Origin: Deltaproteobacteria bacterium
GTDB lineage: Bacteria; Lernaellota; Lernaellaia; JACKCT01
DNA: 42,199 bases
Direction of reading: 5' to 3'
NCBI GenBank assembly: GCA_020845895.1
Contig: JADLEX010000073.1
Location: 1 to 42,199 of the forward strand
Below are positions 14,451 to 41,325 of this stretch, piece by piece. Every line of letters begins with the position of its first letter. The first letter of the stretch is position 1. Position numbers and translations under genes: made by a program. The notes beneath the pieces are model-generated. The model saw only the letters and a program-made list of their open reading frames with translations, was not told where the DNA came from and did no database searches.

Positions 14451-14993
14451 TCACCCGACTCGGTAACGAACCTGCACGAGGCCCGTCGGCCACGACCGGC
14501 ACTCTTCCAGCTTCAGGCCGTGCTCGAACCCCCGGGCGAACAGCGGGATCCCGTCGCCGAGCAAGATCGGGATGATCGAAACCGTGAGGTCGTCGATGAG
14601 ACCCGCGTCCAGGAACTGCCGGATGACCGCGCCGCCATCGATATACGCGCGACGCATCCCGCGCCTCGCGAGCTCAGCGACGATCTCGGCGGGGGCGCCG
14701 CGAAGAAACTCTTCGTCGTGTTTCGGTTCGGCTTCGCGGTGCGTCAACACGAAACAGGACTTTTCCCCGTACAACCACGTCGAGAATCCGCATGCGACGT
14801 CCCACGTGTTCCGTCCGAACACGACCGCGTCCACCGTGTTGAAGAACGCGAAAAATCCGAAGTCTTCGTCGGGCATGTCCACGCAGTCCAGCCAGTCGAC
14901 ACCGCCGTCCGGGCGGGCGATGAATCCGTCGAGGCTCATGGCGATGAACACGGAACATTGGGGGCGTTGCGAGATGTTCTTCGATGTCGTCAT
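14451..14993 (-). CDS. DHFR-fold protein (RibD C-terminal / YyaP-like)
   Basis: A 180-residue protein of the dihydrofolate-reductase superfamily, RibD C-terminal branch. It shows FIAMSLDGFIARPDG at the N-terminus, VVFGRNTWD in the middle, AYIDGGAVIRQFL, and LTVSIIPILLGDGIPLF near the end, all of which place it in the fold. The substrate is not known for this stand-alone group; an NADPH-dependent reductase is likely. It precedes alkC on the same strand with a 7-nt gap. The ribosome-binding site before the ATG is weak. Confidence 0.85.
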   Translation of the reverse strand: MTTSKNISQRPQCSVFIAMSLDGFIARPDGGVDWLDCVDMPDEDFGFFAFFNTVDAVVFGRNTWDVACGFSTWLYGEKSCFVLTHREAEPKHDEEFLRGAPAEIVAELARRGMRRAYIDGGAVIRQFLDAGLIDDLTVSIIPILLGDGIPLFARGFEHGLKLEECRSWPTGLVQVRYRVG

Positions 14994-15070
14994 GGAGTTC
15001 TTTTACCCGGAGGGATCACGTGAAAAAAAGCGGGGCGCGGTCACGCGAAAAGCGTTCGGCGAGAGAAAAC

Positions 15071-15095
15071 GGGCACCGAGAAAACCTCGGTGCCC
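15071..15095 (-). terminator. Terminator downstream of tRNA-Trp
   Basis: On the minus strand GGGCACCGAG-GTTTT-CTCGGTGCCC forms a perfect 10-bp stem followed by GTTTTCTC. It starts 9 nt after the end of the tRNA and separates it from the DHFR-like/alkC pair. Confidence 0.85.
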
Positions 15096-15103
15096 GACAC
15101 GTT

Positions 15104-15176
15104 CACGGGTGGAGAGAATCGAACTCCCAACCCCCGGTTTTGGAGACCGGTGCTCTGCCAGTTGAGCTACACCCGT
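15104..15176 (-). tRNA. trnW: tRNA-Trp (anticodon CCA)
   Basis: A 73-nt cloverleaf. Acceptor ACGGGTG (15176-15170) pairs with CACCCGT (15111-15105). The D-stem GCTC/GAGC is present. The anticodon stem CCGGT/ACCGG encloses loop CTCCAAA, giving anticodon CCA. The T-arm has GGGAG-TTCGATT-CTCTC. The discriminator base is G and the 3' CCA is not encoded. A weak promoter-like TTGATT/TGATAA pair lies about 35-60 nt upstream. A strong terminator follows directly. Confidence 0.96.
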
Positions 15177-15352
15177 ATACCGACCGCATTTTCCCAGGCC
15201 AAAGCCGCGACTGCTTATCACGCGATATCTCGAAAATCAAGCGAAACGGGCCTGCGGACGGGGTCTCGCACGGACACTTGCGTTGCGATTGCGACCCCGG
15301 ATGTCGCACGGCTATTGTACGGTCGATTCGAGAGTCTCTTCGGAGGGAAACC

Positions 15353-16555
15353 ATGGGCTACGGGGGAATCGTCACCGGGGTGGTGCTCGCCACAGTGGCG
15401 CAGATGCCGGCGCAGTTTTCGACGCGTGACGTCTCGGATCATCCCACGATGCTGGCCACGCATCCCGAGCCCCGGCACAGCCATTACCACGCATTCGTCG
15501 GCAAGGAGTTGAAAGTGCTTTGCGACGGACGTGGGCAACTGGTGCTCGAAGAAATCCGCAAGCAGACCGCGCGTGGTTCGGTGTGGCGCAAACGCGACGC
15601 TGAGCCATCGAATCACCACGCCCGGGTTGCCACGACCGCCGCTCCCGATGACGCGGGCGACCGAGTGGGGATTGGGCCGCAATACTCCGGCGACAAGCCC
15701 TTTACGCGGGCAATGCGCCTCCATCAGAGCCGCTACCGGGCCGAGGTTCTGCGCGCTCCCTACGGCACCGGTCCCGAAGTCACGAGCGCCGCACATTACG
15801 GGAACATGCTTACGGTCGAGGATGGGAAGCGGGGGCTCAATTTCCTGACGCCGCAGATCTACGAGATCGCGAGGCGCCGCGTCTCACGGGCGACGGGAAT
15901 GGTCGCGGAATTCCGGCTGTACTGCAACATGCTGTCGAGCCAACCCATGTGCTTCAACCTCTTCGGGCCGCTGGTCGACGATCTCGATCTGGCGACGACG
16001 CTGTGGAAAAAGCTTCTGCCGGGCGAGGTCGAGCGCGTCACGCGCGTCGAAATCGAATGGAATCCGGAGCCACGCTTCGAATACCTCGACGATCGGACCG
16101 CGTTTGACGCCTTTGTCGAATACGAACGCCCAGACGGGACGTCGGCCTTCGTCGGCATCGAGACGAAGCTGACCGAACCGTTCTCTCAGAAGCACTACGA
16201 CAACGAGGCCTATCGCCGCTGGATGCGCGTCGACGACACGCCCTGGAAACCCGAGGCGTGGAATCGCGTGGACGACGACGTACACAACCAACTCTGGCGC
16301 GACCACCTGTTGGCGGTCGCGGTGCGCCGCCACGCGTCGTCGAAGTACACGCATGGACGTTTCATGCTCGTTCGGCATGGCGGGGATACGGAGTGCGCGC
16401 GCGTTGTGGTCGGCTATCGCGAGCTACTGCGCGATGGTGACGACACGTTCATCGACATGCCGCTCGATCGGCTCGTCGCCGAGTGGATCGCCGTCGCGTC
16501 CGAAAGCCACCGAGACTGGCTCGAACGATTTCGTGCTCGCTACCTGGATTTGTAA
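15353..16555 (+). CDS. PD-(D/E)XK nuclease-like protein (PGN_0703-type)
   Basis: A 400-residue protein. The catalytic-type pattern lies around residues 240-275: DAFVEYERPDG, a spacer, then VGIETKLTEPF. That matches the D/E-x-K core of the PD-(D/E)XK fold. The whole-protein layout resembles the PGN_0703 family of putative restriction endonucleases. Residues 1-110 are Arg/His-rich with no clear domain. GGAGGG precedes the ATG at 5 nt; the frame is open further upstream but runs through the tRNA gene. No methyltransferase lies nearby, so a classical restriction-modification pair is not supported. It is convergent with the FAD oxidase gene, 9 nt between the stops. The family call is tentative. 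Confidence 0.6.
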   Translation: MGYGGIVTGVVLATVAQMPAQFSTRDVSDHPTMLATHPEPRHSHYHAFVGKELKVLCDGRGQLVLEEIRKQTARGSVWRKRDAEPSNHHARVATTAAPDDAGDRVGIGPQYSGDKPFTRAMRLHQSRYRAEVLRAPYGTGPEVTSAAHYGNMLTVEDGKRGLNFLTPQIYEIARRRVSRATGMVAEFRLYCNMLSSQPMCFNLFGPLVDDLDLATTLWKKLLPGEVERVTRVEIEWNPEPRFEYLDDRTAFDAFVEYERPDGTSAFVGIETKLTEPFSQKHYDNEAYRRWMRVDDTPWKPEAWNRVDDDVHNQLWRDHLLAVAVRRHASSKYTHGRFMLVRHGGDTECARVVVGYRELLRDGDDTFIDMPLDRLVAEWIAVASESHRDWLERFRARYLDL

Positions 16556-18290: not shown

Positions 18291-18313
18291 GGTGCGATGA
18301 ATCGCGCCACTAC
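18291..18313 (-). repeat. REP element B overlapping the RAYT stop codon
   Basis: On the minus strand GTAG (18313-18310) and one T are followed by the imperfect palindrome GGCGCGAT-TC-ATCGCACC. The TAG of GTAG is the stop codon of the RAYT gene. It is inverted relative to element A, about 55 nt away. Confidence 0.8.
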
Positions 18314-18930
18314 AACATCGGCTCATCGCCATCCGTCGTTGCATCCGGGTTGTCCCGATCGATATTCCAGCGGATCGGATTTTCAATGATGTACTTTCGA
18401 ATCCGTTTCATCTCGTCGTCGTCGCGAATGACGCGCTCGTAATAGTTCCGCTGCCAGGCGAAGGCTGGGTCGACATGTTCGCGGATCTCGCGCGCGGTTG
18501 TCGCCTTGAATGCGCGAACGATATTGCCGAGGGTCGGAGCGCGAGCGCTGTGCGCGGTCGACGGCGAATTGGCCGCGATGGCCTCGGAATTGGGCGCGAT
18601 GAATCGCGCCCCTACGACCGTCCGAACCGTCGACGAATCGGGCGCTCGGTCGTACGTATCCAGTTCGTTGATGAGGATTCCGTGGATGTGATTCGGCATC
18701 ACGATGAAATCCGAGAGCGCGATGTGACCGAATCGACCAGGCAATTCGGACCACCGAATTCGTGCGATCTCTCCCGCAGTTGTCAGCCGGACTTCGTCAT
18801 CGAAAACGTCTCCGAATAGACAGAGACGCCCGGACACGCAAAGCGTCACGAAGTAAGCGCCGGGCAGGGAATAGTCATACCCACGCAATCGAATCGATCG
18901 CCGGCCGTGAATGCTCGGATCGAACGTCAT
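18310..18930 (-). CDS. REP-associated tyrosine transposase (RAYT, Y1 family)
   Basis: A 206-residue Y1 (HUH-type) transposase related to IS200/IS605 TnpA. The N-terminus has the family pattern RLRGYDYSLPGAYFVTLC. The metal-binding motif is MPNHIHGILI (about 77-86). The catalytic Tyr is in RNYYERVIRDDDE (about 164-176), followed by KYIIENPIRWN. RAYTs are domesticated enzymes that act on REP palindromes marked by GTAG. Four such palindromes surround or lie in this gene. One (element C) is inside the coding sequence, read in frame as VVGARFIAPN (about 105-114), in a poorly conserved linker. The stop codon is part of element B. ATG start with a weak ribosome-binding site. Confidence 0.92.
   Translation of the reverse strand: MTFDPSIHGRRSIRLRGYDYSLPGAYFVTLCVSGRLCLFGDVFDDEVRLTTAGEIARIRWSELPGRFGHIALSDFIVMPNHIHGILINELDTYDRAPDSSTVRTVVGARFIAPNSEAIAANSPSTAHSARAPTLGNIVRAFKATTAREIREHVDPAFAWQRNYYERVIRDDDEMKRIRKYIIENPIRWNIDRDNPDATTDGDEPML
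18592..18615 (-). repeat. REP element C inside the RAYT coding sequence
   Basis: On the minus strand GTAG (18615-18612) is followed by the perfect inverted repeat GGGCGCGAT-TC-ATCGCGCCC. It sits in the RAYT gene on the coding strand. The frame stays open through it, so it adds residues without breaking the protein. Confidence 0.88.
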
Positions 18931-21066: not shown

Positions 21067-24000
21067 TCAGCCGGCCGACGCCTGCCGGATCCGTTCGATC
21101 ACGCGGACGCGATCCCGGTGCCACTCGCGCGCCGTAACCCGCAGGTGACGCCAGCGTCGGTGATTCAACACATTCGGAACATGGACGTACTTTTCGTAAA
21201 CATGGGTCGGCGCGCCGCCATCGTCGCACAGGACTGCGAGCGAGTATTTTCGCGAATCATCGCCGTGCACCACGGCGACCGGAAGTCGGAATTCGGACGT
21301 GCCAACCGTCGTCTCCACGGGCAAACCGGCTTTTTCGAGATCGAGGGCGATTTGATGGTGCAGTGGAAGATACAGTTCGTCCGCGTGAGTCGTCCCGCCG
21401 CCGTCGACACGCCGTTTGGTCTGATCGTTCACGAGTGAGAGGATTTTTTCGGCTTGGTTCCGTCGACCTTCGCCCATGTGATGCGCGAACTCTACAAACG
21501 CCTTGAACAGGCGGGGGCCGTCGTTCCGCGTGTTCGCGACCGACAGCATCGACGGGTCGAACGAACTGACAACCACCACCTCGACCTTGGCACGCGACAC
21601 GGCAACGTTGAGCCGCCGTTCGCCGCCCTTTTGCCCGAGCGGGCCGAACCGGGCCGGCACGTACGTTTCCTCGCTTCCGTCCCGCTTTTTTCGGATCGTC
21701 GGCGCGTAGCCGAGGGAAAACACAATCACATCGCGTTCGTCGCCCTGTACACCTTCGAGATTTTTCACGAACGGCCGCGCGTCCATCTGCTCCGCGGACG
21801 CGGCGGCGTCATAGACCCTGGCGAACGCGGCGTCGGCGCTGCGCCGAACGTCGATTTCATCGAGGATGGCACGCCGCTGCGAGATGTTGAACGTCACGAC
21901 GCCAACGCTGAGGTGATCGGGACGCAGCAGGATCTCGCCGACGACATCGACCACGCGTTTTGCCTCGGGAAGATTCACACTCTCCGCCCACACCCCGTCG
22001 GGCACCCTCACCCAGCGCACGGCGGGCGGCGCGGATCGGCTGAGCGTCGCGGGAATCGTGAGCAGCGAACCGCCGTACATCGAGTGGTTGGAAAACGCGA
22101 TGAGTTCCTCGAACAACGCGCGATAGTGCCAACGCAGCGGCGCGCCGACACCGACATTTCTCGCAAGCACCAGCAACGATTCGGACTCGAACACGTCGAG
22201 GGGTACGTCCCGATCCGTCTCGTCCGATTCGTCGGCTTCGATGCCGGACGCAGCCTTGAAAAACGAGGTGGGCGGCATCTGTTTGTCGTCGCCCGCAATC
22301 ACCGCCCGCCGGGCGCGCGTCAGGACGGGGAATCCATTTTCCACGGTGCATTGCGACGCTTCGTCGATGATGAGCAGATCGAAGATCGGCTCACGTGGAA
22401 ACAGAATCGCCGTGGTCTCGGGAGACATCAGCCAGACCGGCACGATGTCGAGCAGTCCCTCGCGGGCGTACCGTCGCACGAGAGTGCGCATCGGCATCAC
22501 GTTTCGCTGCTTGCGGCACTCGCGGACGATGGTCTCCCGCACCGTCTGTTCGGGCGTGCGCCGCGCGCGGGGTTCGGCGGGATTGACCGCCATGAGGCCG
22601 AAGCGATCCCCCTCGACCGCGATGCGCTCGGCCTCTTCGCGGGCGATGGCCTGATGGAGTTCCAACAGACGGGCCGACGCCTGCTCCAGGCTCCCCATCG
22701 GGGGTGCCTGATCGAGGATACGCAGGTCGAACATGGCGTCTTCGCATTGCGCGAGCCACGCTTCGGCCCAACCGCGGCGAACGGCGTCTGCCCAGTCGCT
22801 TGGCGACGCATTCACCGGACCATCGGCCAAACCTTCGGCCAAAGACGTCGCGCCCGCGTACAGACTCGCGATCGCTGTCAGGACCCGATCCGCCTCGACG
22901 AGCCGGTGGGCGTCGGAACCGAATGCGTCGCGAAGTCGCGCGAGTTCGGGGCTCGCCATCCCGACGGCGTGCGGAAACGTCGCGGCGACCGCGGCAACGG
23001 TCGATTGCGCGGCATCGAACGCGTCGGCCAACTCCACGGCCTGTCCGCACCGCGAAATCCAGGATAACCACCCGTTCTGCGGTTCTGTCGCGCCCGGCTC
23101 GATCGGCCAGGCGTCGACGCGCTCCAATTGCCGCTTCGAAATCGCGAGTTTCGATGCGAGATCCCACCAGTGTGTGATGCATCCGATCAGTTCCAGCAAT
23201 TCGCCCGCGTCGCGCGGAAGGAGCGTTCGCGCGCGCAGAATCTGCAACGCGGATTCCGCAGCCCTCCACGCCCGCGCGGCACGAATGCGCCGCTCGAGCG
23301 CCGCGACCAGTTCGAGCCTGATCTTCGCCTTGGCCTGCTCGGGCCACTGGCGCACGAGCGTGTTGCGGATGATCCGCTTGGCCTTTCGCCAGGATGGGCG
23401 AAGGAACCGGAAAAACGATGATGCGAGTCGGCCGGCGACCACAACGGCTTCGGTCAGTTCCGTCGATTCATCGATCTGCACGCGCGTCGACTCGGCCGCG
23501 GCCGCGGCGCGCTCGCCGTCCGCCTCTTCGAGCCCCTCGTAGGGGACCGGCATCGCCACGTGCAGCCGGTCGCGAATCGCCGCGGTCTCGGCCGCACGCG
23601 CGAGCCGGTCGCGGGGGGATTGAAGATCGGCCGGCGAAATTCCGGCGAACGATGCACGCGGGGCGAACAACGCGCCGGATCGATATGGGCTCGATGCCGT
23701 CCAAAACCCGGCGTAGGGGTGAAGATCCTTCACCATTTGCGTCAATCGGCGCAGGTCGTCGCGGCCGATGGATGCCAGATCCGGGAGAGCGACCGGAGGT
23801 GTCGCGATCGACGCGGCCATCGTGTGCAATTGCCCCACGGCGAGGCCGCTGAGCGTAGGCGTCGCGAGAATCCGGTCGCGCGTGGCGAGCTGATCCTCGA
23901 TGTCGCGGATCTCGGCCCGGAACTGTGACATCTTCGCGTCGCTGAACCGTCGGCGATCCGAAGCTTCCAATCGATCCGCGACGTGCGTGTACAGAGCCTT

Positions 24001-26754
24001 GCGATCGTCGTGAACGTCGTGAACGACGGCGGCGAGGTGCCCGATGCCCGCGCCATCCATGCGCTGCTTCACGACGTCGAGCGCAACGCGTTTTTCACAA
24101 ACGATCGCCACCCGTTGCCCCTTGGCGAGCGCGTCGGCAACCAGATTGACAATGGTCTGGCTCTTTCCCGTCCCCGGAGGACCGTCCATCACCATCAGCC
24201 GCGCCGCCCGCGAACGCAAAACCGCCTCGCGCTGGCTCGGATCGGAATAGACGATGGGCTGGTCGGGTGAATCGGACAATGCCGGAGGACGAAATTCCGG
24301 TCTATACGAAGCGGGCAGAATGTCGCACGCCGCGTTGAGCGACGTTTCGAGATTCGTCGCCGACGACGGATCGAGTTTCTGGAGCAGTTCATCGTAGTCC
24401 TGAAGCAAGTCCGAACTCGATTGCGGAAAAAACCCAACGATGGCGTTTTCCGCCAGCGCAATGCCCTCCGGCAGCAAACCCGCCGCGGCGACATTCAATT
24501 CCTCAAACGGAACCAGCGTGCCGGTCAGGGGCTTCGCGTCCAGACCCAGATCGCGCAGCGCGTCGAGCAGTGTCTCGGCGCTCACGGCGGCTTTTTCGTC
24601 GAGCGTTTGCGCGAGTTCGTCGGTGAACGCGTAGTTTTTCTTGGCGAACAGCAGACGGATGAGCGCCTGATTCGCGATGGCCGGATCGGATTCGCGCCGT
24701 CGAAGCACGTAGGTGCCCGCGCCACGTGCGTCGGAAACGAGAGAATACGGATGCAACACCAGCGGGGCGCGCACAAAAAATCCGCCGACGTTTCCGACCA
24801 GAAACGGATATCCGACAAACAGGTCGCGACATCCGGTTTCCTCGACCCGCGCCCGGAACTCGCGGTCCAGATTGCGCAGGGTCCGCGCCGTGTCGGCGGC
24901 GACCTTGTGCAGACCGGCTTCGTCGCCGCTCAGAAGGGGAATGACGTTTTCGGACCACAGCAACGCCACGATGCGCTCGGACCGTCCGTCGATGATCCGG
25001 TCCAGCGAAGCGAGATCGAAATGCCGGCCGGTGACGGCTTTGTACAGGCGCACGCTGGGGCTGCGGCCGTCGCCGCTCACAAGCCGCTCGCGCAGATGCT
25101 TGAGCGCGCCGGCCAGCGCGTCGCGTGTCTTGACCTCGGCCAGCCCCCGCGCACGCGCCGCCTTCTCCTCATCCTCGCGTCGTTTGCGTTCGGCCTGCGT
25201 CAGTCGAAAAACGAGCGACTGATCGAGACGCACCGCGCCGTCGGCGTCGGCGACCGGCGGCGATTCGACCTCCAGCCGATGCTCCTGCACGGACGATTCG
25301 ATGGTCGCCGTGGCGGTTTCGTCCCACGACGCTTTCCCGAGAATCCGCGCCAACCGGCGCAATCCCACCGCGCCGCCGCCGCGACGCGCGAGACCCGCGA
25401 ATAATCCCGCGAGCGCCGTTCGCGCTTCGAACTTGCCCGGCGGCAACGATGGAAGCGGGCGTTCGACGGGCCGGTCCACGCGCTCGATCTTGAGCGCCCG
25501 CGCGGCGGCGGTCAGCAGATAACGGAACAAGTGCTCCTGCTGCAGGCTGCGACCGACCGCCGCCAAAACGTCGAGCTCGCGAACGTGGATTTCGCGATCG
25601 GCGAGAATCACGTGCATCATGATGTTGAAGACGCTGGCGGCGACCGGCTCACCGCCCGCGATGGCGACGGGCAGCAACTCGCCGAACCGCGCGAGCGCCT
25701 TTTCGCCGTCGAGCAGATCCTTCCAGCCGGGAACCACGGTCGAAAACGTGTCTTCGAGCGCCTTGGTCTCCGTGTCGTCAAGGCTGTCGTCGGCCATGGC
25801 CACGAGCGAAGCGGCGCACAGCGCGAATTCCTGGATTTCGGGCGCCGGCGTCCCATCGTCCTGAGTTTCGTAGAATCTCTCCGCGGAACCGCCGAGAATC
25901 GTTTCGAGCACGTCATCCACGTCGGCGAGCGTTCGTGTTCCCGGGCCGCGGCCCGTGGCGGCGCAGAAGGCGTCCGTCTCCGAAAACAGCAGCAGCGCAT
26001 AAGCCCGCAACAAGTGTTCGGGATGCGAGCCGAGCTTTTCGGTTTCGGCTTTTTCCGTTTCGCCGAAGAGCACTTTTGCCTGTTCGATGTAGGCGGGGGC
26101 GTCGCCCGCGAGTCGTTCGGCGGGAAGTCCGGTCACCATGGCCATCATGAGCCGGATAGGGTCGTCGAGCGAACCGGTGGCGAGTGCCGCAAAACGGTCC
26201 GCTGTGAATTCCATCGCCATCGAGACGCGCGAGGCGAGGACACGTACGGAGTCGGGGAGCCGGTGATCCCACGCGATAGCCGACGCGAAATCCATGGCCA
26301 AACGGCGCTTTGTCTGCGCGAATGCGTTGGTGTGCGCGAGATGATGGCCGAATTCATGGCCGAACAGGGCGATGAAACTTCCCCGGTCGAGCAGCGTGGA
26401 CCACTGACCCTGAAGACTGATGAATACCACGTCGGGGCAGATGAAATTCGCCGCGCGGGCTTCGCCGCTCGCCTGATAAATCTCGATCGCGCGATCGAGT
26501 CCGAGTGCGCCGGCCGCCGATTTGGCGTATTCGAACACGTCGGGCGCCATGTTTTCGGAGAGTTTCACGTGCGTCGTCAGCAGGCGTCGTCGAATACGTT
26601 CGGAGTCGTGTTTTTCGAGATTCACAGCCCCACCGGAATTGAAAATGCCGGTGGCCAACAACGAGTCGGCGAACACGGGTTCACCCCGAAATCGAAACCT
26701 CTCCACATCGATCGCACGTTTTTCCGCGCTGGCCATCGCAACGTCTTCGGACAT
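21067..26754 (-). CDS. M48 metallopeptidase - TerB-like - SF1 helicase - nuclease-fold fusion (candidate defence protein)
   Basis: A single 1,895-residue polypeptide, with no signal peptide. Residues about 1-230 are an M48-like zinc peptidase: HEFGHH at 133-138 and a third-ligand motif EFTAD at 182-186. Residues about 310-400 are helical and TerB-like (ADDSLDDTE, LADREIHVREL). Residues about 540-700 resemble the DUF4011-type region before some helicases (VGYPFLVGN, VRAPLVLHPYSL). The SF1 helicase follows: Walker A GPPGTGKSQT (858), DLLIIDEASQ (1459), GDDKQMPP (1488), LRWHYRA, EGVQGDERDVIVFSLGY and RRLNVAVSRAK (1713). Residues about 1790-1895 resemble the Vsr/REase fold that ends such helicases, but the expected first acidic residue reads Pro (FRLPVAV), so it may be inactive. 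ATG at 26754 with a poly-G ribosome-binding site. It stands alone. Antiphage defence is inferred. Confidence 0.88.
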   Translation of the reverse strand: MSEDVAMASAEKRAIDVERFRFRGEPVFADSLLATGIFNSGGAVNLEKHDSERIRRRLLTTHVKLSENMAPDVFEYAKSAAGALGLDRAIEIYQASGEARAANFICPDVVFISLQGQWSTLLDRGSFIALFGHEFGHHLAHTNAFAQTKRRLAMDFASAIAWDHRLPDSVRVLASRVSMAMEFTADRFAALATGSLDDPIRLMMAMVTGLPAERLAGDAPAYIEQAKVLFGETEKAETEKLGSHPEHLLRAYALLLFSETDAFCAATGRGPGTRTLADVDDVLETILGGSAERFYETQDDGTPAPEIQEFALCAASLVAMADDSLDDTETKALEDTFSTVVPGWKDLLDGEKALARFGELLPVAIAGGEPVAASVFNIMMHVILADREIHVRELDVLAAVGRSLQQEHLFRYLLTAAARALKIERVDRPVERPLPSLPPGKFEARTALAGLFAGLARRGGGAVGLRRLARILGKASWDETATATIESSVQEHRLEVESPPVADADGAVRLDQSLVFRLTQAERKRREDEEKAARARGLAEVKTRDALAGALKHLRERLVSGDGRSPSVRLYKAVTGRHFDLASLDRIIDGRSERIVALLWSENVIPLLSGDEAGLHKVAADTARTLRNLDREFRARVEETGCRDLFVGYPFLVGNVGGFFVRAPLVLHPYSLVSDARGAGTYVLRRRESDPAIANQALIRLLFAKKNYAFTDELAQTLDEKAAVSAETLLDALRDLGLDAKPLTGTLVPFEELNVAAAGLLPEGIALAENAIVGFFPQSSSDLLQDYDELLQKLDPSSATNLETSLNAACDILPASYRPEFRPPALSDSPDQPIVYSDPSQREAVLRSRAARLMVMDGPPGTGKSQTIVNLVADALAKGQRVAIVCEKRVALDVVKQRMDGAGIGHLAAVVHDVHDDRKALYTHVADRLEASDRRRFSDAKMSQFRAEIRDIEDQLATRDRILATPTLSGLAVGQLHTMAASIATPPVALPDLASIGRDDLRRLTQMVKDLHPYAGFWTASSPYRSGALFAPRASFAGISPADLQSPRDRLARAAETAAIRDRLHVAMPVPYEGLEEADGERAAAAAESTRVQIDESTELTEAVVVAGRLASSFFRFLRPSWRKAKRIIRNTLVRQWPEQAKAKIRLELVAALERRIRAARAWRAAESALQILRARTLLPRDAGELLELIGCITHWWDLASKLAISKRQLERVDAWPIEPGATEPQNGWLSWISRCGQAVELADAFDAAQSTVAAVAATFPHAVGMASPELARLRDAFGSDAHRLVEADRVLTAIASLYAGATSLAEGLADGPVNASPSDWADAVRRGWAEAWLAQCEDAMFDLRILDQAPPMGSLEQASARLLELHQAIAREEAERIAVEGDRFGLMAVNPAEPRARRTPEQTVRETIVRECRKQRNVMPMRTLVRRYAREGLLDIVPVWLMSPETTAILFPREPIFDLLIIDEASQCTVENGFPVLTRARRAVIAGDDKQMPPTSFFKAASGIEADESDETDRDVPLDVFESESLLVLARNVGVGAPLRWHYRALFEELIAFSNHSMYGGSLLTIPATLSRSAPPAVRWVRVPDGVWAESVNLPEAKRVVDVVGEILLRPDHLSVGVVTFNISQRRAILDEIDVRRSADAAFARVYDAAASAEQMDARPFVKNLEGVQGDERDVIVFSLGYAPTIRKKRDGSEETYVPARFGPLGQKGGERRLNVAVSRAKVEVVVVSSFDPSMLSVANTRNDGPRLFKAFVEFAHHMGEGRRNQAEKILSLVNDQTKRRVDGGGTTHADELYLPLHHQIALDLEKAGLPVETTVGTSEFRLPVAVVHGDDSRKYSLAVLCDDGGAPTHVYEKYVHVPNVLNHRRWRHLRVTAREWHRDRVRVIERIRQASAG

Positions 26755-26919
26755 GTTTCCCCCCCGGTTCGGGCTTTGCTCGAAAACGCACATTGTTGAT
26801 CGCGCCGCCTCGGGCAGCGACAATCCGTCATGGTTCGATCATGAAACTTCGCGCGCGGGCCGTTTCGTCTAGGCGTCGGCCCGAACGACCCAAATGAAAC
26901 TGTTCATCAGGCTACTGCC

Positions 26920-32975: not shown

Positions 32976-34595
32976 ATGAGACACTTTTTCAGGTTCGGAT
33001 TTCTGATGTTTCTCGCAACGGCGCTTTTCGCCTTGCCCGCCTGCACGGATGACAGCCAGGACGATGCCGAGGACGCGATCGAGGATGCCCTCGGGCTCGA
33101 AGTTGAATTCAACAGCGACGATCTGGGCGTATCGACGCCGGACGGCTGGAATTTCCTCTTCGCGGTGAAGCTGGAAGGCGACGACGTCAATCTCGTGGTC
33201 GACGACTTCAAGATCGATCTGACGCTGCTCGACGAGATCGACGGGATCGACCTGTCCGAAATTGACCACATGATCGCGATGGCGCGGGTGGACGGACTAT
33301 CCGGATTCGGCAAGCGCCTCCGCTACGCCAACAAAATGATCATCAAGGACAACATCCTGCGTCTGGACAACAAGGCCATCAGTCTGCTCGGCGATTCGAT
33401 CGGCCCTTCGGGCGAAGGATGGTACGCGATCTACTACGCCGATGTGCAAAACGGCTACATCCGTGGAACCGTGGAATGCAACGGCGATCCGATCGAGGGC
33501 GCCCCGGCGGTTGTGACCGCGGGCGGATTTTTCACGTATTCGGCCAGTGACGGCGCCTGGGCCCTGCCCACGCTCGCCGGCCTGCCCGGGGTCGTGACCG
33601 TGTCCAGCGATGAGTGCGTTTGCGCGTCGGCCGTCCCGGTCACCGACACCAACAAGAACCCCAATCCCAAGTCGGATGACCCGGATGACACCCCCAAGTG
33701 CGAGACCTTCCCCGACGACACGCCGACCATCGACGCCGAAATCTGCGTCTGCTGTCCGCCGCTCCCGGCTGACGATGACACCGCTGACGACGATACCGCT
33801 GACGACGATACCGCTGACGACGATACCGCCGACGACGATACCGCCGATGACGACACCACCGACGACGACACGGCCGATGACGACACGGCCGACGACGACA
33901 CGGCCGATGACGACACGTCTGACGACGACGACTCGGGCGGTATCGATTTCGAAAATGGATCGCTCGACGGTTGGCAGGTCACTTCGGACTGCGCGATCTA
34001 CGGCATCAGCGGCGATGCACACGGCGCCCCGTTCCCCGGCGGCTCCGAGGCCAACTACCTCTACGCTTCGTCCGGCGGCAACATGGTTCCGAGTTGCACC
34101 ATGACCCTCACGACCGTGGTCCCGGATGGAATGTCGGAACTGGAAATCAGTTACGACTTCATCAGTCAGGAGTACGAGGAATGGGTCGGCAGCGTGTATA
34201 ATGACATCTTCACGGTCATCGTTCAGGGTTCGCCCGAATACCTGGTCAACCGTACCGTGAACAACGTGGCTCTGGTCAACGATTGGTCGGAGATCGCGGC
34301 CGACTCTGCCGCGGCGACCATCGCCCAGATCGCGTCGTCGGTCGACGCCCAGTACAATCCGTCGGGCTCCTCGCCGCACAGCAACGGCCCGTACCAGTTC
34401 GACGGCCATCTCGTCTGGGGCGGCTCGGGCGATACCACGCCCCGCGGCCTGCCCGAGAACGACAACCTCGGTCGCACCGCCACGGTCGCGCTCCCCACGG
34501 ACATGTCCACGATCACCATCATCGTCACCATCTCCGACGTCGGCGACAAAATCTATGACTCCGTCGGCGCTATCGACTACCTCATGTTCAAATAG
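32976..34595 (+). CDS. Secreted lipoprotein with long ADDDT tandem-repeat linker
   Basis: A 539-residue lipoprotein. The signal peptide ends in FALPAC (Cys near 23). The N-terminal domain (about 35-265) is beta-rich and acidic, with several Cys toward its end (SSDECVCASAV, ICVCCPP). A linker of about ten ADDDT units follows (about 268-322). The C-terminal domain (about 325-539) begins FENGSLDGWQV and has GGSEANYLYASSGG, SYDFISQEYEEWVGSVYNDIF and IDYLMF. This is a carbohydrate-binding or adhesin-like beta-sandwich pattern seen in many secreted bacterial proteins. The AAAGGAG ribosome-binding site supports the ATG. Function unknown. The repeat linker probably holds the two domains apart. Confidence 0.82.
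   Translation: MRHFFRFGFLMFLATALFALPACTDDSQDDAEDAIEDALGLEVEFNSDDLGVSTPDGWNFLFAVKLEGDDVNLVVDDFKIDLTLLDEIDGIDLSEIDHMIAMARVDGLSGFGKRLRYANKMIIKDNILRLDNKAISLLGDSIGPSGEGWYAIYYADVQNGYIRGTVECNGDPIEGAPAVVTAGGFFTYSASDGAWALPTLAGLPGVVTVSSDECVCASAVPVTDTNKNPNPKSDDPDDTPKCETFPDDTPTIDAEICVCCPPLPADDDTADDDTADDDTADDDTADDDTADDDTTDDDTADDDTADDDTADDDTSDDDDSGGIDFENGSLDGWQVTSDCAIYGISGDAHGAPFPGGSEANYLYASSGGNMVPSCTMTLTTVVPDGMSELEISYDFISQEYEEWVGSVYNDIFTVIVQGSPEYLVNRTVNNVALVNDWSEIAADSAAATIAQIASSVDAQYNPSGSSPHSNGPYQFDGHLVWGGSGDTTPRGLPENDNLGRTATVALPTDMSTITIIVTISDVGDKIYDSVGAIDYLMFK
33774..33930 (+). repeat. 15-bp tandem repeat coding ADDDT units
   Basis: About ten head-to-tail copies of a 15-bp unit (consensus GCTGACGACGATACC, with synonymous drift to GCCGATGACGACACG toward the 3' end). 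It encodes the ADDDT linker. The first copies are nearly identical and the later ones vary mostly at third positions, which suggests recent duplication at one end. Confidence 0.85.
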
Positions 34596-38571: not shown

Positions 38572-39944
38572 GCGCGATGCGCGACGTGATCGTGGTAGGC
38601 GGCGGCATCTCCGGGCTCGTCGCCGCGTGGCGGATTCGCGCGGCCGGGCGCGACGCGCTCGTGATCGAGGCCGAGGGCGAGGTCGGCGGCAATATCCGCA
38701 CCTATCGAGACGGCGATTACGTGCTCGAACGCGGACCGCACAGCTTCATGGGCGGCGCGGAGGCCATCTGGCGGCTGCTGGCGGATCTCAAGATGGAAGA
38801 CCGCGCGCTCGCGGCGTCGGCCGCCGCCGACAACCGCTTCGTGTACCGCGACGGGCGGCTGATTCCGATTCCGCTGTCGCCGGGCAAGTTCATCGCGTCG
38901 CCGCTGCTTTCGGCGCGCGCGAAACTGCGCCTGATGTCCGAGCCGTTCCGCAAGGGCGGCGCGAAGCCGAACGACACGGCGCTCGAGTTCTTCCACCGGC
39001 GATTCGGCGTCGAGGCGACGACGTTTCTCGCGGGCGTGTTCGTGTCGGGGATCTATGCTGGCGACCCGGCGCGGCTCGGTGCGCGTGCAGCGTTTCCGAA
39101 GTTCTGGAACTTCGAGCGCGACCACGGGAGCATGATTCGCGGTTCGATCAAGTTCATGCGCGAAAAGAAAAGGCGCCTCGGCGCCGAGGGCAAGACGTCG
39201 CGCAAGGGGCTCTACAGCTTTCGCGAGGGGCTCGGGTTTCTCGCGACAGCCGTGGCGCGCGAAGTCGGCGTGGCGAACATCGTTACCGGTGCGCCCGCCG
39301 AGGCGATCGAGAGAATCGATGGCGGTTGGTGTGTTCGCGCGGGTGGCGGCGAATACGAAGCGAGGGCGCTGGTTGTGGCCGCTCCGCCGCACGTCGCCGC
39401 GCGCCTCCTCGCGCCCATCGACGCCGAGGCCGCGCGCATCGCGGGGAGCATCCCCATGGCGCCGGTCGCCGTCGTGCATCTCGGCGGGCCGATCACGCCG
39501 AACCTGCCGTCCGGCTTCGGCGCGCTCATTCCCAGGCATTACAAGATCCGCACATTGGGATCGCTTTTCGCGTCGCAACTCTTCCCGGGCCGCGCGCCCG
39601 AGGGCAAGTTCCTGAACACGAGTTTCATCGGCGGCATGTTCGATCCCGACGCGCTGAAGCTCTCCGACGACGACCTTATCGTGCTCGCGAAGTCGGACCA
39701 GAAGCAATTGATGGGTCTCACCGTGTTCGATTACGCGAGCGTGCTGCGTTACACGCACGCCATCCCCCAACTCACGCCCGATCACCCGGAGCGGATGGAG
39801 GCGCTCGCCGCGCGCGTCCGCGCAGTGCCCGGCCTCGTGCTCGCCGGCAACTACATCACGGGCGTCGGCGTCGATCACGCGGTCGCGAGCGGCTATGCCG
39901 CCGCGGAGGGGATCGCGGCATTCTTCGGATCGACGGGCTCTTAA
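38568..39944 (+). CDS. hemY: Protoporphyrinogen oxidase (FAD-dependent, HemY/HemG type)
   Basis: A 458-residue flavoprotein that oxidises protoporphyrinogen IX to protoporphyrin IX. The FAD-binding GxGxxG lies in VVGGGISGLVAA at the N-terminus, followed by EAEGEVGGNIRTY and ERGPHSFMGG. FVSGIYAGDP and the C-terminal GLVLAGNYITGVGVDHAVASGYAAA are typical of the family. The ATG overlaps the hemH stop and has GGGAGGA upstream. It completes the route from uroporphyrinogen III to haem. Pairing an oxygen-independent HemN with an FAD-type oxidase is found in myxobacteria and relatives. Confidence 0.95.
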   Translation: MSAMRDVIVVGGGISGLVAAWRIRAAGRDALVIEAEGEVGGNIRTYRDGDYVLERGPHSFMGGAEAIWRLLADLKMEDRALAASAAADNRFVYRDGRLIPIPLSPGKFIASPLLSARAKLRLMSEPFRKGGAKPNDTALEFFHRRFGVEATTFLAGVFVSGIYAGDPARLGARAAFPKFWNFERDHGSMIRGSIKFMREKKRRLGAEGKTSRKGLYSFREGLGFLATAVAREVGVANIVTGAPAEAIERIDGGWCVRAGGGEYEARALVVAAPPHVAARLLAPIDAEAARIAGSIPMAPVAVVHLGGPITPNLPSGFGALIPRHYKIRTLGSLFASQLFPGRAPEGKFLNTSFIGGMFDPDALKLSDDDLIVLAKSDQKQLMGLTVFDYASVLRYTHAIPQLTPDHPERMEALAARVRAVPGLVLAGNYITGVGVDHAVASGYAAAEGIAAFFGSTGS

Positions 39945-39996
39945 CACGAGCCGCCAGCGCGCTCATAATCGCTTCGGATCTTCGTTGGAGGGCGAC

Positions 39997-41325
39997 GTGC
40001 GCGCGCGCGGGATTTATGTTTTCGTTCTGATCGTCGGTGTTGCGACATTTGCGAGCGGCGATGACGTGACCGGCGTGGTTTTTCACGACGCGGATCACTC
40101 CGCGCGGTCTCACTACGTGCTGCATCGCAACGCGACCGATGTTGTGCTGCCCGGCGTGGATGTCGCGCTCATCGACGCGGTCGGCGAGGTCGCGGCGCAA
40201 ACCGACGCCGACGGTGCGTTCGTGTTCGAGGGCGTCGCGGACGGCTTCTACCTGCTCGACACGCAGGACGGCGGGCACGACGCCACGTCGAGCAACGTCG
40301 CGCGCCGCGTGCCAGAGGCGATCCGCGAAGGCGAGCTCGTGATGGTGAGCTTGGGTGACAGCATCGGCGCGACCGGCACGCCGTATCCATCGCGCCTCGC
40401 CGATCTGCTGGGTGAACTCACGACGGTCGATCTGCACAATATCCATGTCGGCGGCAGCAAGAGCTGGGACTGGCTGCCGGGCGGGGGCGGCGACGGTCAC
40501 TATGAGGACCTGCTCGAACCGCTGCTTGAGGACGCGGACCTCTTCACGATCACGCTGACCGGCAACGACATGGAGGCTTACATCGACGGGCTCACGCCCC
40601 CGTATGACGTGTGGGAGGTGCTGGGCCGCGTGATCGATCATCCCGAGTACGTGCTGGAGTCGTATCCGCGGCTGCTCGACCTGATCGACGCGATTCGCAC
40701 GGCGAATCCGGGTGCGGACATCGTCTACGCGATCTACCCGAACTTCGCGAACAGCACCTTCATCTACGACCGCATCGGTCCGGATCTTCAACCGCTCGCG
40801 GCGGTGATCGTCGACCTTTACATGGGGATCGGCCGTGTGGTGGTGGCGGGCGAGACCGACGCGCTGCTCGCTGACATGGATGCGTTCTACGGCGACGCGT
40901 GGCTGGACGATTATCTGATCGACGAGGTGCATCCGAGCGAAGCGGGCTCGCAGGACTACGCGGAGCAGATGTTCATCGCGCTCGGCGGTGTGCGCGTGGG
41001 GGATGAGCCACTCGGGCTCGATCGCGAAATCGGCCTGTACGCGCCGGATCTCGCGCCGGCCGATGACGACACGGATGATGACTCCGACGACGATATGGAC
41101 GATGACACGACCGATGATGACGCGTCGGATGACGACGACGCGACGGATGACGATACGGTGGACGACGACGTGAGCGACGACGATTCCCTCGACGATGACA
41201 CGATGGACGATGACTCCGATGACGACCAAACGGACGATGATTCGGCTGATGATGATGCCTCGAACGATGACGACGCCACGGGCCAAGGCGGCGGGGATGA
41301 TGATGACGATGCGTGCGGCTGTTGA
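39997..41325 (+). CDS. Secreted SGNH/GDSL-like esterase with C-terminal Asp-rich tail
   Basis: A 442-residue protein. The signal peptide is at about 1-20 (YVFVLIVGVATFASG). A small beta domain, SdrD-B-like (about 24-95), precedes an SGNH hydrolase. Block I is MVSLGDSIGATG with nucleophile Ser near 119, block III is LTGNDME, and the C-terminal catalytic Asp/His is in DEVHPSEAG. Residues about 355-430 are a long DDDx tail, and the last residues are DDDDDACGC. Here the Asp-rich segment is C-terminal, not next to a lipobox as in the other proteins of the window. It may be a cell-surface retention signal; that is a guess. The GTG start is preceded by GGAGG. The substrate is unknown. Confidence 0.82.
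   Translation: MRARGIYVFVLIVGVATFASGDDVTGVVFHDADHSARSHYVLHRNATDVVLPGVDVALIDAVGEVAAQTDADGAFVFEGVADGFYLLDTQDGGHDATSSNVARRVPEAIREGELVMVSLGDSIGATGTPYPSRLADLLGELTTVDLHNIHVGGSKSWDWLPGGGGDGHYEDLLEPLLEDADLFTITLTGNDMEAYIDGLTPPYDVWEVLGRVIDHPEYVLESYPRLLDLIDAIRTANPGADIVYAIYPNFANSTFIYDRIGPDLQPLAAVIVDLYMGIGRVVVAGETDALLADMDAFYGDAWLDDYLIDEVHPSEAGSQDYAEQMFIALGGVRVGDEPLGLDREIGLYAPDLAPADDDTDDDSDDDMDDDTTDDDASDDDDATDDDTVDDDVSDDDSLDDDTMDDDSDDDQTDDDSADDDASNDDDATGQGGGDDDDDACGC

Follow-up and report, generated by a model that had tools for sequence, protein, structure and literature searches.

The action of many helicase-based bacterial immune proteins is believed to culminate in the cleavage of nucleic acid. Giant MTES_1575 proteins with a transglutaminase-like peptidase were described by Anantharaman et al. 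2013, who suggested that the transglutaminase-like domain serves in defence by cleaving proteins (PMC3710099). In this ProA-type architecture, the peptidase lies N-terminal to a DUF4011/SF1 helicase and the MTES_1575 fold; this peptidase is of the transglutaminase-like (cysteine) type, a HEPN RNase is present in some cases, and the C-terminus carries winged helices/DUF3320. Protease-HamA fusions of the Hachiman system have no HamA nuclease motif, and their protease is triggered by DNA sensing and ATP hydrolysis (PMC12799240). A further described system, Hhe, joins DUF4011 and an SF1 helicase to a Vsr-type tail.

We analyzed a DNA stretch of 42,199 nucleotides (hereafter, the window) from a genome that belongs to a small phylum of its own, and confirmed that a single gene encodes, in this order, an M48 peptidase, TerB-like helices, DUF4011, an SF1 helicase with a long helical insert, and an MTES_1575 nuclease fold. 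An initial annotation had placed this gene at 21067-26754, with the order M48, TerB-like, helicase, and nuclease fold and a full set of SF1 helicase motifs. The coordinates proved correct, on the minus strand, the domain order was borne out, and the full motif set is present. The open reading frame spans 26823..21067 on the minus strand, with its stop at 21067, and the likely start is the ATG at 26754, which is preceded by a G-rich Shine-Dalgarno-like stretch (GGGGGGGAAAC-ATG). Residue numbers are counted from the TTG at 26823; subtracting 23 gives the ATG-based numbering. The features of the gene are the following.

21067..26754, minus strand: whole gene, M48-TerB-DUF4011/SF1 helicase-MTES_1575 fusion, 1,895 aa from ATG 26754
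25954..26601, minus strand: M48 zinc peptidase domain, residues ~75-290, assigned from Pfam M48 and invariant motifs
26341..26358, minus strand: HEFGHH, residues 156-161, zinc-binding/catalytic HExxH, found in 25/25 linked members
26197..26211, minus strand: EFTAD, residues 205-209, third zinc ligand Glu, with E and D kept in 25/25
26005..26028, minus strand: SHPEHLLR, residues 266-273, M48 C-terminal HP...R motif, from the motif alignment
25474..25842, minus strand: TerB-like helical domain, residues ~328-450, Pfam TerB 21.2 bits, E 3.6e-4, sole family matched
24649..25086, minus strand: DUF4011 region, residues ~580-725, Pfam DUF4011 33.5 bits, cut-off 22.2, aligned residues 640-725
21559..24255, minus strand: SF1 helicase with long helical insert, residues ~857-1755, Pfam AAA_11/AAA_12/AAA_19 above cut-off
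24160..24183, minus strand: Walker A, GPPGTGKS, invariant
22354..22365, minus strand: Walker B, DEAS, invariant
21082..21354, minus strand: MTES_1575 (Vsr-type) nuclease-fold tail, predicted inactive, Pfam MTES_1575 40.3 bits, cut-off 38.2
21268..21291, minus strand: FRLPVAVV, Pro replacing the presumed catalytic Asp of RxD, from the active-site alignment
21223..21240, minus strand: LAVLCD, Leu replacing the presumed catalytic Glu of G[IV]ECDG, from the active-site alignment

The putative M48 domain of the window protein itself falls below the Pfam cut-off (PF01435, 16.9 bits vs 20.3), and support for its assignment comes from relatives, which score 22.1, 23.0, 23.3, and 29.7 bits, with one (L183) below the cut-off at 19.2 bits. 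Moreover, the HExxH, the Glu ligand in ExxxD, and the HP...R motif are invariant in a seven-row alignment, and the zinc site is intact in all 25 helicase-linked members, fused and split. The TerB assignment is likewise putative in the window protein and supported by relatives: the cut-out domain scored 21.2 and 22.7 bits in fused members (22.9 in L183) against a cut-off of 24.4 (PF05099), and a stand-alone M48-TerB relative lies above the Pfam cut-off for both M48 (55.6 bits) and TerB (32.3 bits). Sequence searches of the PDB with the M48 and TerB profiles returned no matches, and structure prediction for residues 24-660 and for the tail, made from two-sequence alignments only, gave mean pLDDT values of 36.8 and 49.3, too low for the models to be usable. 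For the helicase part, the nearest solved structures are SMUBP-2 and SEN1, and a motif alignment showed that the helicase motifs are retained across M48-linked members.

Among named models, the nearest to the window protein are the anti-phage proteins ProA and Hhe and the candidate PDC-S37. Like ProA, the window protein carries a peptidase N-terminal to a helicase and nuclease fold, and its DUF4011, SF1 helicase, and MTES_1575 parts all exceed their Pfam cut-offs. Against the ProA model (NCBIfam NF058533), it scored 515.6 bits vs a cut-off of 1500, most of the match falling in the helicase part and the best stretch at residues 1099-1915, and its relatives scored 521-700 bits. Unlike ProA, it has an M48 zinc peptidase and TerB and lacks DUF3320; a profile of the ProA N-terminus matched nine related helicases and no M48-linked helicase. 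The open papers that we searched held no account of an M48-linked helicase. The earlier statement that no described system is known to have an M48 peptidase in this position agrees with this search, but a peptidase of another kind was already known in the slot (ProA, PMC3710099). The proposed kinship with Hhe, which shares DUF4011, the SF1 helicase, and the Vsr-type tail and differs in its N-terminus from the M48-TerB part, is supported by scores of 344 bits for NCBIfam NF042953, below its cut-off of 2000, and 230 bits for PADLOC PDLC02194. A PADLOC match to PDC-S37, which, going by its name, we take to be a phage-defence candidate only, reached 494 bits over the helicase and tail (residues 857-1915) and leaves out the M48 and TerB part. 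Protease-HamA Hachiman (HamMAB) has a similar outline, with a helicase sensor, a fused protease, and loss of the original nuclease site, but its protease is trypsin-like, its helicase is of another kind, and it includes an additional gene for an MBL-fold pro-nuclease that the protease activates (PMC12799240). No partner pro-nuclease gene of the HamMAB type was found beside the M48-helicase loci. SPRTN/Wss1-type DNA-dependent metalloproteases likewise tie an HExxH protease to DNA, but they belong to the SprT family rather than M48 and have no fused SF1 helicase.

A scan of a genome collection revealed a full-length fusion in Haloferula sp. BvORR071 (P0002) that is 60% identical to the window protein over its whole length. 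Searching 388 genomes from the Haloferula phylum yielded a third fusion (G242), and 195 genomes of another phylum yielded two more (L182 and L183), for a total of five fused genomes in three phylum-level groups, the four relatives lying in two groups other than the window's. Because the architecture is common to five full-length fusions, we do not consider the fusion a product of chance. In 20 genomes we found a split form, in which an M48 gene of about 400 codons lies directly upstream of a helicase gene of about 1,700-1,900 codons; these helicases carry DUF4011, SF1 motors, MTES_1575, and often WGR, and the two genes overlap by 4 bp in five loci. Seventeen of these genomes belong to the Haloferula phylum, nearly all to one order, and three to the other phylum, where one helicase frame (L116) is broken. 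An M48 of the window type occurs in 20 of 289 genomes of the Haloferula order, a count that takes in the fused form and distant matches. As a control, no DUF4011/SF1-type helicase was present near any of 12 inspected M48 relatives from other lineages. No M48-linked member was found in the viral contigs, phages, or plasmids searched.

In the helicase tree, fused members and split members make up separate monophyletic groups. The two groups unite in one clade (100/98) when long-branched helicases are left out, and this joint clade becomes weak (92/62) once these are included; a tree of the M48 domain agrees, with weaker support (91/78). As all M48-linked helicases fall in one clade, the protease and helicase appear to be in a lasting partnership rather than an accident of one genome. 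The window protein is nearest to that of Haloferula, and this pair is closer (60% identity) than the corresponding RecA proteins (56%), whereas the reverse holds for G242, whose RecA is 67% identical to Haloferula's and whose fusion copy is more distant. Judged from these trees and identities, the two forms share ancestry and the fused form was transferred between phyla, while the split form seems to have descended mostly by vertical inheritance within the order to which Haloferula belongs. The Haloferula fusion gene lies just downstream of recA, and two near relatives (RecA ~97%) have a common gene order up to recA, with the fusion gene missing. In the window, codon usage of the fusion gene matches that of the other genes (r=0.96), and an empty-site test matched its flanking DNA, at ~70% identity, to different contigs of two same-family genomes (G001/G002), so the gene does not look like a contaminant. 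The fusion gene was absent from the same-family and same-class genomes searched.

In the nuclease-fold tail, the presumed catalytic Asp and Glu, roles assigned from the PD-(D/E)xK pattern, are both replaced in the window protein. The Glu is lost in all 24 readable M48-linked members and kept in 19 of 22 related DUF4011 helicases without M48, among them seven of nine with a transglutaminase-like domain. The RxD Asp has become Pro in four of the five fused members (window, HALOF, L182, and L183) and is retained in most split-form members. Given the complete loss of the Glu in M48-linked members and its retention in M48-free relatives, the tail is probably a dead nuclease that binds DNA or serves as an adaptor, leaving the protease to do the work. 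A reading of the Vsr/REase-like tail of the initial annotation as a working nuclease is not supported; the fold is present, but we dropped the active reading because the active-site residues are replaced. Within the M48-linked clade the loss of the Glu was never reversed and the protease site never decayed, and, since this group is a single clade, nuclease loss may have been one ancestral event. At the sequence level, the fusion thus joins conserved protease and helicase sites to a degenerate nuclease site, and the whole clade seems to have swapped a nuclease for a retained zinc protease, in parallel with protease-fused Hachiman but independently of it. Loss of the nuclease Glu is also seen in three M48-free helicases of the DUF4011 type (L144, L143, and L050, which are Bacteroides finegoldii, Bernardetia, and a ProA with HEPN).

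A kept motor, a nuclease fold kept in shape only, and a kept zinc site suggest that DNA recognition is read out as proteolysis. We infer a DNA trigger, coupling between helicase and protease, a protein substrate, and a role in defence along the following lines. Aided by the inactive tail as a DNA-binding adaptor, the SF1 helicase would engage abnormal or foreign DNA, and its ATP-driven movement would switch on, or supply substrate to, the N-terminal M48-TerB peptidase. The peptidase would then cleave protein, either a target of host or phage origin or whatever proteins are bound to the engaged DNA. That the peptidase is the output of a helicase sensor had been proposed from the window alone; our analysis supports this at the level of inference and makes it the likely output. 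We regard a helicase-gated zinc protease as about evenly poised between right and wrong. Its most likely use would be a suicide- or interference-type defence, like that of the related helicase proteins ProA and Hhe, and we place defence against phages or mobile elements somewhat below even.

A proposed check on such a role had been enrichment near known defence genes. Among 52 neighbours of 17 loci, a set without matched background, most were housekeeping or unremarkable genes, five scattered matches to PADLOC models occurred, and no defence-gene enrichment was seen; this is the pattern that the initial annotation had named as speaking against a defence role. With neighbourhoods that are not defence-enriched, the case for defence is left to helicase kinship and to patchy, transferable occurrence. 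Further points against defence are the lack of M48-linked members among the phages, plasmids, and viral contigs searched, the largely vertical descent of the split form, and the status of some DUF4011 genes as core genes, for example in P. aeruginosa (PMC10250203). No protein family was widely common to the neighbourhoods when antisense ORFs over the operon and near-kin synteny were set aside, and in the absence of a conserved third gene the cleavage target is probably not encoded beside the M48-helicase locus.

The housekeeping neighbours, with recA itself in Haloferula, are also what a role in repair of DNA damage or DNA-protein crosslinks could produce. In such a role, the helicase would move along DNA and present any obstructing proteins to the M48 peptidase, similar to what SPRTN/Wss1-type DNA-dependent metalloproteases do. 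Consistent with repair, the split-form M48 is weakly SprT-like (23.0 bits vs a cut-off of 25.6), descent within the order of Haloferula is mostly vertical, and a WGR domain (65.7 bits), which occurs in PARPs and binds broken DNA, is often present at the C-terminus of the split-form helicases. However, a Pfam search found no WGR in the fused protein of the window, the peptidase belongs to M48 and not to the SprT family, and the recA neighbourhood is not common to close relatives. Moreover, the patchy occurrence (20/289 genomes of the order), the gene transfer between phyla, and the named anti-phage proteins among the helicase kin all speak against repair, which we consider unlikely but still a serious rival to phage defence.

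Protein quality control or self-processing, in which the peptidase would trim the helicase, or else other proteins of the cell, with no part played by DNA sensing or defence, could draw on the existence of stand-alone M48-TerB proteins that adjoin a TerB gene outside any helicase context; a fixed partnership with an intact SF1 helicase across a large evolutionary distance makes it quite improbable. A restriction-type DNase, with the tail cutting DNA and the peptidase as an accessory or regulatory part, would fit the above-cut-off MTES_1575 fold and the RxD Asp kept in most split-form members, but with the presumed catalytic Glu lost in 24/24 members, the Asp gone too in 4/5 fused ones, and the peptidase site invariant, it is very improbable indeed.

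Returning to the helicase-gated protease, its fullest version is a bacterial DNA-triggered metalloprotease, undescribed and present in fused and two-gene forms in several phyla, that uses a dead nuclease as adaptor and answers foreign or damaged DNA with M48 proteolysis; we hold this version tentatively, as slightly more apt to fail than to hold. If confirmed, M48 peptidases would become one more output of helicase sensors, whether in immunity or in repair, and the peptidase slot of the ProA-type architecture would be exchangeable.

Several minor observations were made along the way. The N-terminal region of the split helicases (L045 10402-11058, the first ~220 residues of P0004) shows weak similarity to a protein-kinase C-lobe (E 0.003) and may be a degenerate kinase fold. 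Stand-alone M48-TerB proteins are adjoined by a small TerB gene (L186 7758-9470, L190 8369-10149, and L188 7169-8983), and this pair, which lacks a helicase, is conserved in several genomes of another phylum; Pfam matches confirm the pair in L186 and its small gene in L190. At L048 (G320:C143, 2843-12093), another M48 protein (P0012) has as neighbours a TerB protein (P0013), an HsdR-like gene, and a pair of Hsp70-like genes, which may together form a distinct M48/TerB/Hsp70 cluster. Within the window, a PDDEXK_13/REase-ARP nuclease gene (276 bits) lies at 14984-16555; its called start overlaps a tRNA-Trp on the opposite strand (15103-15177), so the true start should be further in. A gene at 18310-18930 encodes a protein whose PNHIHGI motif is like that of REP-associated transposases, with no Pfam match. 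Finally, the genes at 999-2528, 32976-34595, and 39895-41325 encode secreted-looking proteins with long D/T-rich (TADDD) repeats, and the DNA of the TADDD-repeat proteins recurs many times in related genomes.
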